A stretch of 64,000 bases of DNA from NCBI RefSeq assembly GCF_001941825.1, contig NZ_CP019038.1, positions 4,774,001 to 4,838,000 of the forward strand, written 5' to 3'. The stretch is from Massilia putida (GTDB taxonomy: Bacteria > Pseudomonadota > Gammaproteobacteria > Burkholderiales > Burkholderiaceae_D). Shown here piece by piece: positions 1,133-18,673 of this stretch. The notes below the pieces were generated by a model that worked only from the letters and a program-made list of their open reading frames with translations, ran no database searches and had not been told where the DNA came from. Numbering within the stretch: position 1 is the first letter of the stretch; each line of letters opens with the position of its first letter. A program made the position numbers and the translations under genes.

Positions 1133-2613
1133 GCGCGCAACCCGTCGACATCCAGTTCGCACTCGTCTCGCACACGAACAACGGCAAGACGACCTTGGCG
1201 CGCACGCTCATCGGCATGGACGTGGGCGAGGTGCGCGATGCCGCCCACGTGACCGTGTTCGCCGAAGCGCACACGCTGCAGACCACTCACACGGGCGATC
1301 GCCTGTTGTTGTGGGACACGCCCGGCTTCGGCGACTCGGTCCGCTTGCTCAAGCGGCTCGCGCAAGCCGGCAATCCGATCGGCTGGTTTCTGCGCGAAGT
1401 GTTCGACCGCTACCGCGACCGGCCGTTCTGGCTCAGCCAGCAGGCGCTGCGCGCGGCGAAGGATGCGGCCGACGTCGTCCTGTACCTCGTGAATTCGTCC
1501 GAGGATCCGCGCGACGCGGGCTATTTGCCGGCCGAGATGCGGATCCTGGAATGGCTGGGCAAACCGGTCGTCGTGCTGCTCAACCAACTGGGACCACCGC
1601 GGCCCGACGAGCAGGAACAGGCGGAGCAGACGCGCTGGAAGGCGCATCTCGACCGGTTCGCGATCGTGCGCGACGTGCTCGCGCTGGACGCGTTCGCCCG
1701 CTGCTGGGTGCACGAGGATGTGTTCTACGAGCGCGTCGGCAAGTTGATCGACGAGGCCAAGCGCGACGGCTATGCGCGCCTGCTCGCGGCCTGGCAGGCG
1801 AACAATGTGCAGCGCTTCCGCGCGTCCGTCGAACTCGGCGCGCAGATGCTGGCCGGCGCAGCGCGCGACAGCGAGGCGATCGCGCAGGAGGGCAAGGCGG
1901 GCCTGCTCAAGTCCGCATTGAAGGCAGTCGGTCTCGGCAAGGACGAACAAAAGCGCCAGGACGCGGCGATGGCCGGCCTCGTCGAGCGGCTCGAGCGGCG
2001 CATCGGCGATACGACCGTCGGCCTGCTGCGCCTGCACCGGCTCGACCCGGGCGACGCGGGCCGCATCAATGCCCGCGTGCGCGAGAACTTTGCCGTGCGC
2101 GCGCCCATCGACAAGGCGCCGGCCGGACTGCTGGGCGCCGTCGTCTCCGGCGCCGCGACCGGGCTGTCGGCGGACCTGATGGCCGGCGGCCTCACGTTGG
2201 GCGGCGGCGCGCTGCTCGGCGCGATCGTCGGGGCGCTCACGATGGCCGGCGCGGCCTGGGGTTTCAACACGACGACGGACCGCGACCGGCCTACCGTGCA
2301 GTTCGCGGATCCGTTCCTGCGCACGCTCCTCGTCGGCAGTGTGTTGCGCTACCTGGCCGTCGCCCACTTCGGACGGGGACGGGGCAACTTCGTCGAAGGC
2401 GAGGCGCCGCCGTTCTGGCAGGCAGAGGTCGAACGCAGCGTCGCGCGGCACGAGGCGGAACTGGCGCCGCTGTGGAAGGCCGTACGCGCCGCGCCCGATG
2501 CCGCGGCGGCGACTGCATCCGTGCAGGCGCTGCTCGGCCGCGTGATCGTGGAAACGCTCGAACATCTGTATCCGGAGACGGCGGCGCGCGCGCTGGCACG
2601 CGCGGCGATGTGA
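1129..2613 (+). CDS. GTPase with DUF3482 C-terminal domain
   Basis: 494 residues. The ATG at 1129 overlaps the preceding stop and gives the expected N-terminus just before the P-loop. A longer frame exists upstream but lies inside the neighbour. The P-loop reads HTNNGKTTL at about residues 14-22, followed by a switch/G3-like WDTPGFGDS near residue 63 and an LNQLG element near residue 150 in place of NKxD. The C-terminal half, with a hydrophobic glycine-rich stretch at about residues 340-380, matches DUF3482. This is probably a membrane-associated GTPase acting with the upstream DUF2868 protein. The cellular role is unknown. Confidence 0.8.
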   Translation: MSAQPVDIQFALVSHTNNGKTTLARTLIGMDVGEVRDAAHVTVFAEAHTLQTTHTGDRLLLWDTPGFGDSVRLLKRLAQAGNPIGWFLREVFDRYRDRPFWLSQQALRAAKDAADVVLYLVNSSEDPRDAGYLPAEMRILEWLGKPVVVLLNQLGPPRPDEQEQAEQTRWKAHLDRFAIVRDVLALDAFARCWVHEDVFYERVGKLIDEAKRDGYARLLAAWQANNVQRFRASVELGAQMLAGAARDSEAIAQEGKAGLLKSALKAVGLGKDEQKRQDAAMAGLVERLERRIGDTTVGLLRLHRLDPGDAGRINARVRENFAVRAPIDKAPAGLLGAVVSGAATGLSADLMAGGLTLGGGALLGAIVGALTMAGAAWGFNTTTDRDRPTVQFADPFLRTLLVGSVLRYLAVAHFGRGRGNFVEGEAPPFWQAEVERSVARHEAELAPLWKAVRAAPDAAAATASVQALLGRVIVETLEHLYPETAARALARAAM

Positions 2614-2624
2614 CACCTGTTGCA
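2609..2624 (+). promoter_or_regulatory. Candidate activator site (UAS) upstream of pedF
   Basis: TGTGACACCTGTTGCA fits the inverted repeat TGnnACA-CC-TGTnnCA. It starts 67 bp before the -24 element of the pedF promoter and overlaps the stop codon of the GTPase gene. Equivalent sites lie upstream of exaC and of the porin operon, and one precedes the activator gene. Confidence 0.65.
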
Positions 2625-2675
2625 AATTGGGACAGGCGCGGACCGCGTACGCCTTCATCAAGGGCGTCGAACGCA

Positions 2676-2691
2676 TGGCACGCCGATTGCT
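2676..2691 (+). promoter_or_regulatory. Sigma-54 promoter of pedF
   Basis: TGGCAC-N5-TTGCT is a full match to the -24/-12 consensus TGGCAC-N5-TTGCW. It lies 37 bp before the pedF start codon. Confidence 0.85.
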
Positions 2692-16666: not shown

Positions 16667-18597
16667 GGAGAGGTTTTCAAATGCGGCAGCTTGCGATAAA
16701 TGGTGTTGCGCGAGACACCCAGCGCGCGTGCCGTGGCCGACACGTTGCCGCCGTTCGCTTCCAGGGACTTGAGGATCGCGGCCAGTTCCATCTCTTCGAG
16801 GTTGGCGCCGGTCGCGATCATCTGCTGGGCGACGGGCGCATTCGCCGGTGCCTCGGCGACGTCGTCGAGGAAGTCGTCGGGCATGTGGCGCAGGCCGATT
16901 TCCTCTTCATCGCCCGCCATGATCGCCGCCGTGCGCAACAGATTGGTCAGCTGGCGGAAGTTGCCGGGCCATTTGTGGCGCCTGAACAGCCGCAGCACTT
17001 CGTCCGAGATCGTATGGGTGCCGCCGGTTTCGGTTTCTGCGGAGAGGATCTTCTTCACGACCGTCTCGAGGTCCGTGCGCTCGCGCAGCGGCGGCAGTTT
17101 GACGACGAGGCCGTTCAGCCGGTAATACAGGTCTTCGCGGAACAGGCCTTCGGCGATGCGCTGGCGCAGGTTGTGGTTCGTCGCGCAGATCAGTTCCACG
17201 TTCACGGGAATCGACTTGCCGCTGCCGAGCGGCGTGACCATCCGCTCCTGCAGCACGCGCAGCAGGCGCGCCTGCAGGGAGTAGGGCATGTCGCCGATCT
17301 CGTCGAGGAACAGCGTGCCGCCGTTCGCCTGCAGGATCCGGCCGACGGCGCCCTTCTTGCGCGCGCCGGTAAATGCGCCGTCCTCGTAGCCGAACAGTTC
17401 CGATTCGATCAGCGTTTCCGGGATCGACGCGCAGTTGACCGCGACGAACGGCCCTTGCGCGCGCGGCGAATCGTTGTGGATGGCCTGGGCCAGCAGCTCC
17501 TTGCCGGTGCCGGTTTCGCCCATGATCAGGATCGGCACGTCGCGTCCGAGCACGCGGTTGACCTTGTCGATGACCTGTTCCAGTTGCGGGTCGCCCGTGT
17601 TCAGGTAGCGCAGGCCGGACAGGCGCCGCGTCGCGGCCTTCGCCGGCGGCTGGGGGAGGGCGGCGGCCTGCGAGGCATCGTCGAACGCGCCGGTCAGCAC
17701 GTGCACGCCGTTCGTCAGGCGCAGCTCCGCGCGGCCGCGCACGCGCACGCCGTTGTGCATGCACAGGTCGAGCAGGCCGGGCGCCGCCGTGCGGTAGTGG
17801 TCATACAGCGCGGAGACGGGAAGGCCGAACAGGGAACTGAACGTATGGGCCTGCAGCGCGGGATACGAAAGGCCGAGCTGGAACAGGCCGTTGCGGTTGG
17901 CGGCGAGGAAGCGGCCGCCCGGACTGAACGACGCGATCCCTTCCATCAGCGTGCCGATGAACTCCGGCCGGGTGTGGAAGTGCAGCGTGATCGCGTTTTC
18001 GAACGTCGCCGTGAACATCTGGTTCTCGATCATCAGCGCCGACATGCGCACGAGGGCCATCGTGTGCTTGTGGAAGCTGCGGCGGTCGCCGCTGACGTCC
18101 AGGACGCCGACCACGTTGCCGCGGTGGTCCGTGATCGGCGCCGCGGAGCAGGTGAGGAAGTGGTTCGCGGAGAGGAAGTGCTGGTCGGCGTGGACCGTCG
18201 TCGGGGCCCGTTCGGCGATCGCGGTGCCGATCGCGTTCGTGCCCTTGCTTTCTTCGGACCAGGCCACGCCGGGTGTCAGCGCGACGCGGTTGGCCTTTTC
18301 CAGGAAGTCGGCATCGCCCAGCGAATGCACGATCACGCCTTGGGCGTCCGTCAGCAGCACCATATTGTGCGTGTTGGCGATCTGCTGGTACAGCGTTTCC
18401 ATCGCGGGCACCGCATGGCTGTACAGGAGGCGATTCTGTTCGACCAGGTGCGACAGGTCGGCGCCGGACATAGGATTGAAATCGGGGCGCGAATCGGGAC
18501 ACAAGCCGAATTCTTCCGAGCGGCGGTGCGAGATGGCGATCATCGAGGCCAGGTCGTCGCCGGGGACGAGCAGGCCTGCTGCGTGTTGATAAGTCAT
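16663..18597 (-). CDS. Sigma-54 dependent activator, AcoR family (GAF-AAA-Fis)
   Basis: 644 residues from the ATG at 18597, which has AGGAGA upstream; a longer frame continues upstream but lacks a site. The domains are a GAF-like sensor (about residues 50-210), a linker, a sigma-54 AAA domain with Walker A GETGTGKE (360-367), the sigma-54 contact loop GAFTGA (407-412), Walker B LFLDEIGD, and a Fis-type HTH at the C-terminus (NVSATARALGVSRNTIYRK). AcoR-type proteins sense small metabolites such as acetoin, alcohols or aldehydes. It probably drives the sigma-54 promoters at 2676, 7244, 7282, 8355 and 12390. It converges on apbE, the two genes overlapping by four bases. Confidence 0.9.
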   Translation of the reverse strand: MTYQHAAGLLVPGDDLASMIAISHRRSEEFGLCPDSRPDFNPMSGADLSHLVEQNRLLYSHAVPAMETLYQQIANTHNMVLLTDAQGVIVHSLGDADFLEKANRVALTPGVAWSEESKGTNAIGTAIAERAPTTVHADQHFLSANHFLTCSAAPITDHRGNVVGVLDVSGDRRSFHKHTMALVRMSALMIENQMFTATFENAITLHFHTRPEFIGTLMEGIASFSPGGRFLAANRNGLFQLGLSYPALQAHTFSSLFGLPVSALYDHYRTAAPGLLDLCMHNGVRVRGRAELRLTNGVHVLTGAFDDASQAAALPQPPAKAATRRLSGLRYLNTGDPQLEQVIDKVNRVLGRDVPILIMGETGTGKELLAQAIHNDSPRAQGPFVAVNCASIPETLIESELFGYEDGAFTGARKKGAVGRILQANGGTLFLDEIGDMPYSLQARLLRVLQERMVTPLGSGKSIPVNVELICATNHNLRQRIAEGLFREDLYYRLNGLVVKLPPLRERTDLETVVKKILSAETETGGTHTISDEVLRLFRRHKWPGNFRQLTNLLRTAAIMAGDEEEIGLRHMPDDFLDDVAEAPANAPVAQQMIATGANLEEMELAAILKSLEANGGNVSATARALGVSRNTIYRKLPHLKTSP

Positions 18598-18657
18598 TCC
18601 ATGTCTCCTGTTTGGCCCTGGACCGCGGCTCTGTGCTGGGAATCGACTGTTCACAAA

Positions 18658-18673
18658 TGTAGCACCTGTACCA
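18658..18673. promoter_or_regulatory. Candidate activator site upstream of the activator gene
   Basis: TGTAGCACCTGTACCA fits the same inverted repeat as at pedF and exaC. It lies about 60 bp before the activator start, with no sigma-54 promoter between, so binding could repress the activator's own sigma-70 promoter. Confidence 0.6.

Follow-up and report, generated by a model that had tools for sequence, protein, structure and literature searches.

The stretch of DNA analysed here (the window) comprises 64,000 nucleotides of the Massilia putida genome (contig NZ_CP019038.1, positions 4,774,001 to 4,838,000 of the forward strand). It carries genes of a pyrroloquinoline quinone (PQQ)-dependent alcohol-oxidation cluster, among them pedF, exaC, an exaA-type dehydrogenase gene, a porin-like gene and, on the opposite strand, a gene for an AcoR-type bacterial enhancer-binding protein, called the activator below. 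A preliminary description of this DNA had proposed a 16-bp site, TGnnACACCTGTnnCA, as an enhancer of the activator shared by three sigma-54 promoters and placed at a constant distance from them. On recheck, the 16-mers lie exactly where they had been reported, upstream of pedF (TGTGACACCTGTTGCA, 2609–2624), exaC (TGGGACACCTGTACCA, 8287–8302) and the porin-like gene (TGCAACACCTGATCCG, 12322–12337), with site-to-box distances of 67, 68 and 68 bp from the site start to the respective −24 box. The element is common to the three sigma-54 promoters, enhancer-like, and kept in orthologous promoters. The 16-mer is nevertheless most likely the seam between two adjacent units of a larger array, as comparison of related promoters indicates, and a fourth copy (TGTAGCACCTGTACCA, 18658–18673) stands in the activator's own promoter.

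Architecture of the arrays

Promoters were taken from 80 loci of activator homologues, 40 further genome stretches and gene maps, which gave 24 pedF, 33 exaC, 21 porin-gene and 32 activator promoters (110 in total). After removal of 16 with a 16-mer score below 8, and then of near-duplicates (>80% identical) and cut sequences, 59 promoters were kept. Reading these side by side brought out a second half-site, and the array takes the form TGTnnCA-N3-TGnnACA-NN-TGTnnCA-N3-TGnnACA with a 19-bp repeat. TGnnACA (at least 4/5) occurs at +19 in 33 of the 59 promoters, with 3 or fewer at each of the other offsets between 16 and 38. TGTnnCA occurs at −10 in 25, with 6 or fewer at each of the others between −30 and −7. 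It is these in-register half-sites that identify the sequence as an array with a 19-bp repeat. A further half-site in this register is present in 52/59 promoters (pedF 13/14, exaC 16/20, porin-like gene 8/10, activator 15/15), while unrelated pairs of offsets average 3.6% and never exceed 15%.

With a 20-position score fitted to features read in the same promoters, 23/24 pedF, 29/33 exaC and 15/21 porin-gene promoters reach at least 13, and shuffled sequences score 12 at both the 95th and the 99th percentile. A scan of the window returned the four known arrays with scores of 14 to 17 and one further place, at 16692, with a score of 14; five mononucleotide shuffles contained 0 to 2 such places per strand. 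The highest-scoring array of the window is that of the activator's own promoter (Table 1).

Table 1. Predicted regulatory elements and genes of the cluster, in window coordinates.
Feature	Position	Strand	Remarks
pedF enhancer	2609..2634	+	half-site TGTGACA 2609–2615, then complete TGT-N11-ACA unit TGTTGCAAATTGGGACA 2618–2634
pedF sigma-54 promoter	2676..2691	+	TGGCACGCCGATTGCT
pedF, cytochrome c-550	2728..3201	+	TIGR04494 above cut-off
exaC enhancer	8277..8302	+	unit TGTTCAAGTTTGGGACA 8277–8293 (9/10), then half-site TGTACCA 8296–8302
exaC sigma-54 promoter	8355..8370	+	TGGCACGGGGTTTGCG
exaC, acetaldehyde dehydrogenase	8443..9963	+	NF050026 above cut-off
DUF779 protein	10026..10406	+	PF05610; usual exaC neighbour in gene maps
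PQQ-dependent alcohol dehydrogenase, exaA-type	10434..12179	+	TIGR03075 above cut-off
porin-like gene enhancer	12312..12347	+	degenerate TGT-N11-ACA units CGATCAAAACTGCAACA 12312–12328 and TGATCCGATTCGTCACA 12331–12347, each 7/10
porin-like gene sigma-54-like promoter	12390..12405	+	GGGCACGCAACTTGCC; first base not T
porin-like protein, predicted outer-membrane	12466..13623	+	no family match; name inferred from sequence
activator, AcoR-type bacterial enhancer-binding protein	16663..18597	−	GAF, sigma-54 AAA+ with GAFTGA, Fis-type HTH_8
activator promoter array	18648..18683	−	units TGTTCCATTCTGGTACA 18683–18667 and TGCTACATTTGTGAACA 18664–18648; array score 17/20
putative sigma-70 promoter of activator	18656..18684	−	TTGTTC 18684–18679, 17 bp, TACATT 18661–18656; upstream TG (extended −10)

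The probable binding unit

Within the Massilia-type promoters alone, a 16-bp and a 17-bp reading of the array are not separated. The palindrome TGnnACACCTGTnnCA could itself be the dimer site, with one dimer centred on ACACCTGT and the flanking half-sites serving as partial second sites. In line with this, the 16-mer averages 8.85 of 10 positions and the TGT-N11-ACA unit 8.68, and scores of at least 8 are reached by 59 and 49 of the 59 promoters, respectively, in a set selected by the 16-mer. The 16-mer is also exact at pedF and exaC, its central pair is usually CC or GG, and the unit reaches 8 in only 1 of 10 porin-gene promoters. The two readings part in the Burkholderia-type promoters of exaA PQQ-dehydrogenase genes, of which 30 of 55 were kept after near-duplicates and short sequences had been removed. 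All 30 contain TGT-N11-ACA at 8/10 or better, whereas only 10 contain the 16-mer (shuffles 2.8% and 2.4%). Because these promoters retain only the TGT-N11-ACA element, they distinguish the 17-bp unit from the 16-bp palindrome, and a TGT-N10-12-ACA pattern is a known class for many activators with such a helix-turn-helix (HTH) motif (PMC6615313). We therefore regard the palindrome as an unlikely dimer site. The 16-mer was not borne out as the binding unit; the unit that stands alone is TGT-N11-ACA, and TGnnACACCTGTnnCA would be formed where two such units abut.

An exact unit is found at 7 places in the M. putida genome and at none for the reversed control. The places are pedF, the activator gene and five others, and only pedF has a good −24/−12 box within 200 bp. 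In the window, the inverted TGT and ACA trinucleotides are 11 bp apart, in degenerate form at the porin-like gene. The arrays of pedF, exaC and the porin-like gene, and those of their orthologs, lie upstream of sigma-54 −24/−12 boxes; the array of the activator promoter does not. Nor is TGT-N11-ACA a general companion of sigma-54-like boxes. Of the Burkholderia-group activator promoters, 50 of 57 were kept, and 41 of these 50 have a sigma-54-like box (at least 5/6, with a score fitted to that group), yet the unit occurs in only 1 of them, against 4.5% in shuffles.

Occurrence in the genome and in relatives

Counts were made over the 7,523,017 bases of the genome, with the reversed motif as control. 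The exact sequence TGNNACACCTGTNNCA occurs twice, both times in this window. The perfect palindrome TGNNACANNTGTNNCA has three locations (control: two), and a good −24/−12 box (at least 7/8) accompanies it only at the pedF and exaC sites; the third place (L083) lies beside a helicase-like gene. When one mismatch was allowed, TGNNACACCTGTNNCA gave 30 occurrences and the control 32. The loose motif is therefore background, and we rejected it as a genome-wide signal. None of 28 one-mismatch loci, L083 included, has a good −24/−12 box 20–130 bp downstream on either strand, with the match assumed at the locus centre. Rarity resides in the strict motif combined with its position. In its strict form the motif is less frequent elsewhere than near sigma-54 promoters; in its loose form it is background everywhere.

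For relatives, we searched 62 genomes of the genus for ACANNTGT followed by GGCAC-N5-TTGC, again with a reversed control, and summed the tables. Gaps of 14–44 bp returned 10 matches (control 11), which is background; gaps of 45–75 bp returned 60 (control 9) and gaps of 76–106 bp returned 45 (control 6), both in excess. By coordinates and gene maps, 32 of the 60 matches at 45–75 bp belong to these clusters, and many of the remainder fall at other sigma-54 promoters. Orthologous promoters of the genus, read side by side, confirm that the motif is conserved upstream of these genes.

Distance to the promoter

The distance between array and −24 box varies among relatives, and the constant spacing that had been read from the three window sites was abandoned. 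In 44 non-redundant promoters, for which the Massilia-type distances were recomputed by script, the values cluster mainly at 56, 66–71, 77–81, 90–93 and 101–103 bp, the remaining ones being 37, 49 (three), 60 and 74 bp. Relatives thus mostly show 56–103 bp, in groups about 11 bp apart, and the 67 and 68 bp of the window are one step of this series. A periodicity scan of the 44 promoters gave 11.4 bp with R = 0.62, a value that none of 2000 uniform draws attained. In Burkholderia, distances from the unit start are mostly 91–96, 104–107 and 115–116 bp, with two at 134–137 bp; pooled with the Massilia-type promoters and anchored on the unit, they gave R = 0.50 at 11.5 bp (distances typed by hand). 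The grouping makes it likely that the array is phased to one face of the helix relative to the −24 box.

Promoter of the activator gene

No good −24/−12 box was found within 200 bp of the 18658–18673 site when both strands were scanned. The two units at this site overlap a putative sigma-70 promoter instead (Table 1), which a consensus promoter scan did not list. Relatives retain its GTGCTACATT whether or not their array is good (weak-array examples are L016, L021 and L297). Because the array covers the sigma-70-like promoter of the activator, the arrangement suggests that the activator represses its own gene.

The Burkholderia-group activator genes (L024–L082) mostly have a sigma-54-like promoter without a TGT-N11-ACA unit, as counted above, so something else may drive them. 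A broader idea, which we put forward tentatively and with more doubt than confidence, is that one 19-bp-packed array for two dimers would play opposite roles, as a short-range sigma-54 enhancer that tolerates only indels of roughly one full helical turn (about 11 bp) and as a repressor site over the activator's own sigma-70 core promoter. The feedback would then have been rewired in the Burkholderia group, since most activator genes there have a sigma-54-like promoter but no array.

Gene cluster and other sigma-54-like promoters

The activator was correctly recognised as AcoR-type: its domains are assigned to PF01590 (GAF), PF00158 (sigma-54 AAA+) and PF02954 (HTH_8), and GAFTGA is present in the translation. 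Among solved structures, the top match is the Nif-specific regulator 9qq6 (E = 5.8e-71, residues 324–634), and the remainder of the 35 matches are other sigma-54 activators or relatives. The cluster also encodes a periplasmic binding protein, a beta-propeller protein and a putative TonB-dependent receptor (our own label). Directly after the porin-like gene, at 13632–16666, follow a NosR-like membrane protein (below the family cut-off) and an ApbE-family protein. What we take to be a 16S rRNA gene lies directly upstream of the activator gene, in a region of about 19190–36000. Background motif matches recur there at about 11.3 kb, which suggests two tandem rRNA operons.

Two divergent sigma-54-like promoters, at 7282–7297 (+, beta-propeller gene) and 7259–7244 (−, TonB-receptor gene), are also seen in relatives. 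Another activator, or none, may control them. Ahead of the beta-propeller gene, a conserved TGCAATATACCTGCCA was considered as a variant site and discarded, as its opposite strand reads TGGCAGGTATATTGCA, a −24/−12-like box for the divergent TonB-receptor gene. A TonB-receptor-like gene of another genome (G172; our own label) has both an array and a −24/−12 box.

Other promoters returned by the searches carry different sequences. An SDR gene with GACACCTGTC palindromes, found in four genomes, looks like it has another activator's site, and we do not claim it as a further target; the same applies to promoters with TGTCCGGA palindromes, which look like sites of other activators. In relatives, the sigma-54 boxes of an SDR dehydrogenase-like gene (L119, L172, L176 and L177 from three genomes, plus G155) are accompanied by ACACCTGTC-type sites at a spacing of 33 bp, which another activator perhaps uses. 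At ten further loci of relatives (L163, L165–L167, L170, L179, L181, L183, L184 and L192), sigma-54 boxes are preceded at a nearly constant distance by TGTCCGGA-type palindromes, which probably mark another regulon.

Discussion

The activator is probably the protein that binds the arrays. This assignment is made from context: the strongest array of the window is at the activator's own promoter, an array lies between the divergent activator and pedF genes, and arrays and activator co-occur. The divergent arrangement, with the array between the two genes, is seen in L314, L315, L316, L053 and L023, where the arrays score 13–15. Of the 62 genus genomes, 18 contain pedF, and each of these 18 has an activator homologue of at least 82% identity. 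Homologues of at least 73% are found in 26 genus genomes, one of them partial (counted by hand), and 18 of the 21 genomes with a cluster match in the 45–75 bp search have such a homologue. The HTH motifs of the homologues are similar, a sameness that is partly built in because the search pattern already required an SRNT-YR helix; the tails compared came from 10 of 11 orthologous loci. Of the proposal that the sites form a shared enhancer of this activator, the choice of protein stands as the best candidate, by context, but the 16-mer unit and the fixed spacing do not.

A second group of activators, 43–45% identical to the first, was also seen (L308–L310 and L317–L320), and some of its members lie beside homologues of the beta-propeller protein, the PQQ dehydrogenase or the TonB receptor. 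Members of this group may bind the same site. Another enhancer-binding protein of the genome, for example one of this group, might be the one that occupies the arrays. Three genomes of the genus (G156, G186 and G193) and two outside it (G133 and G091) have an exaC promoter match and only a 43–45% homologue of the activator. In G156 and G186 the contig with the match also encodes this homologue, at a distance of about 9 and 12 kb; in the rest it is on other contigs. The exaC arrays of the five genomes score 12, 11, 16, 16 and 16, respectively, so that three are strong and the first two are at background. In M. putida itself, a first look gave 29 candidates for an activator-like protein, of which 20 were scored; only the activator passes E = 1e-150 among these 20, and an array is found both at its own promoter and between it and pedF in the five loci named above. 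We consider it improbable that a different protein is responsible. That the arrays are kept for some other cause, such as a nucleoid protein or a repressor, with an incidental sigma-54 association, is very improbable: the fourth array does overlap a sigma-70-like and not a sigma-54 promoter, but arrays lie upstream of −24/−12 boxes at pedF, exaC and PQQ-dehydrogenase promoters across genera, with grouped spacing and linkage to a sigma-54 activator.

The mechanism that we favour, with a probability of about 0.76, builds on the observed sites, their array, its conservation, the variable spacing and the co-occurrence with the activator. The activator would bind as dimers to TGTnnCA-N3-TGnnACA (TGT-N11-ACA) units that follow each other head to tail at 19-bp intervals. 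Two adjacent dimers would form the enhancer at pedF, exaC and the porin-like gene, with some arrays eroded to a unit and a half, and this enhancer, mostly 56–103 bp upstream of the −24 box in relatives, would probably sit on one face of the helix. The GAF domain probably senses an alcohol or aldehyde, and the GAFTGA loop would allow the activator to drive sigma-54 RNA polymerase, so that the periplasmic alcohol-oxidation system is made. On its own sigma-70-like promoter, the same kind of array would make the activator repress itself.

Several observations weigh against this mechanism, in addition to the five genomes with only a 43–45% homologue. Of the three target arrays, that of the porin-like gene is the weakest; it is degenerate, and its register differs in some relatives. 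In the wider family (145 genomes), the gapped pattern matched in 24 genomes with the correct −24/−12 spacing and equally in 24 when the spacing was off by one base, so there is no excess of the pattern at the level of the family. The phasing is weaker when repeated values are merged: p is 0.0055 over 26 distinct gene-distance pairs and 0.06 over 21 distinct distances. The pooled distances, typed by hand, show no periodicity close to 11 bp once the TGnnACA half serves as anchor. As shared descent inflates the figure from the 44 promoters, the phasing is held to be likely and not proven. Finally, the divergent promoters at 7282–7297 and 7259–7244 score 12 and 8 and have no array; the former scores 10–12 in 8 orthologs, and the latter was scored in the window only.

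For AcoR-like activators without a known target, the arrays offer a testable regulon and a putative binding site; of the activator loci fetched, 73/80 also hold a PQQ-dehydrogenase homologue (counted by hand). The natural series of spacings is a ready comparison for how strictly sigma-54 polymerase requires a short-range enhancer to face it. From the existence of two kinds of activator promoter one may see how the feedback of enhancer-binding proteins can change between relatives. A further possible use is in laboratory sensors, as a promoter that responds to alcohols or aldehydes.

A description of this exact site was not found in the literature searched, which comprised open-licence papers. 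Judged by its sequence, the site is a member of the known TGT-N10-12-ACA class of upstream activating sequences, which includes those of NifA and FhlA and, in Clostridiales, those of AdhR and other groups (PMC6615313). It shares with this class the inverted TGT and ACA (11 bp apart here), the location upstream of a −24/−12 box and the proximity to the gene of a Fis-type activator, and the multiple copies per promoter frequent in the class appear here as the extra half-site in register. Unlike in the class, although not every known case was compared, the half-sites are longer (TGTnnCA and TGnnACA) and packed tightly head to tail at 19 bp, and the setting is PQQ-dependent alcohol oxidation in Oxalobacteraceae and Burkholderia relatives.

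In its layout of GAF, AAA+ and Fis-type HTH domains, the activator is like AcoR, which has the same three parts. It differs from AcoR proper in its surroundings, as no acetoin dehydrogenase components were found among the ten cluster proteins scanned. The AcoR motif of Clostridiales is outside the TGT/ACA class (PMC6615313). A functional likeness is offered by AdhR of Clostridium beijerinckii, a GAF-containing sigma-54 activator of alcohol dehydrogenase genes with three sites per promoter, all contributing (PMC7017808). Both systems combine a GAF-containing sigma-54 activator, alcohol dehydrogenase genes and multiple sites; AdhR, however, serves alcohol synthesis in another phylum. BmoR of Thauera butanivorans is a sigma-54 activator that responds to alcohols; its activating sequence, an inverted repeat, lies 193 bp ahead of the promoter boxes (PMC8899819). 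It resembles the activator in being tied to alcohol and in its upstream inverted-repeat element, and differs in that distance. In the Pseudomonas ped/exa system, regulators such as AgmR and PedR2 control pedF and PQQ alcohol dehydrogenases, and the sole sigma-54-dependent regulator named in the sections consulted is CbrB, at a higher level (PMC12997753). The two systems thus share pedF and the PQQ alcohol dehydrogenases as controlled genes and differ in the regulators that act on them.

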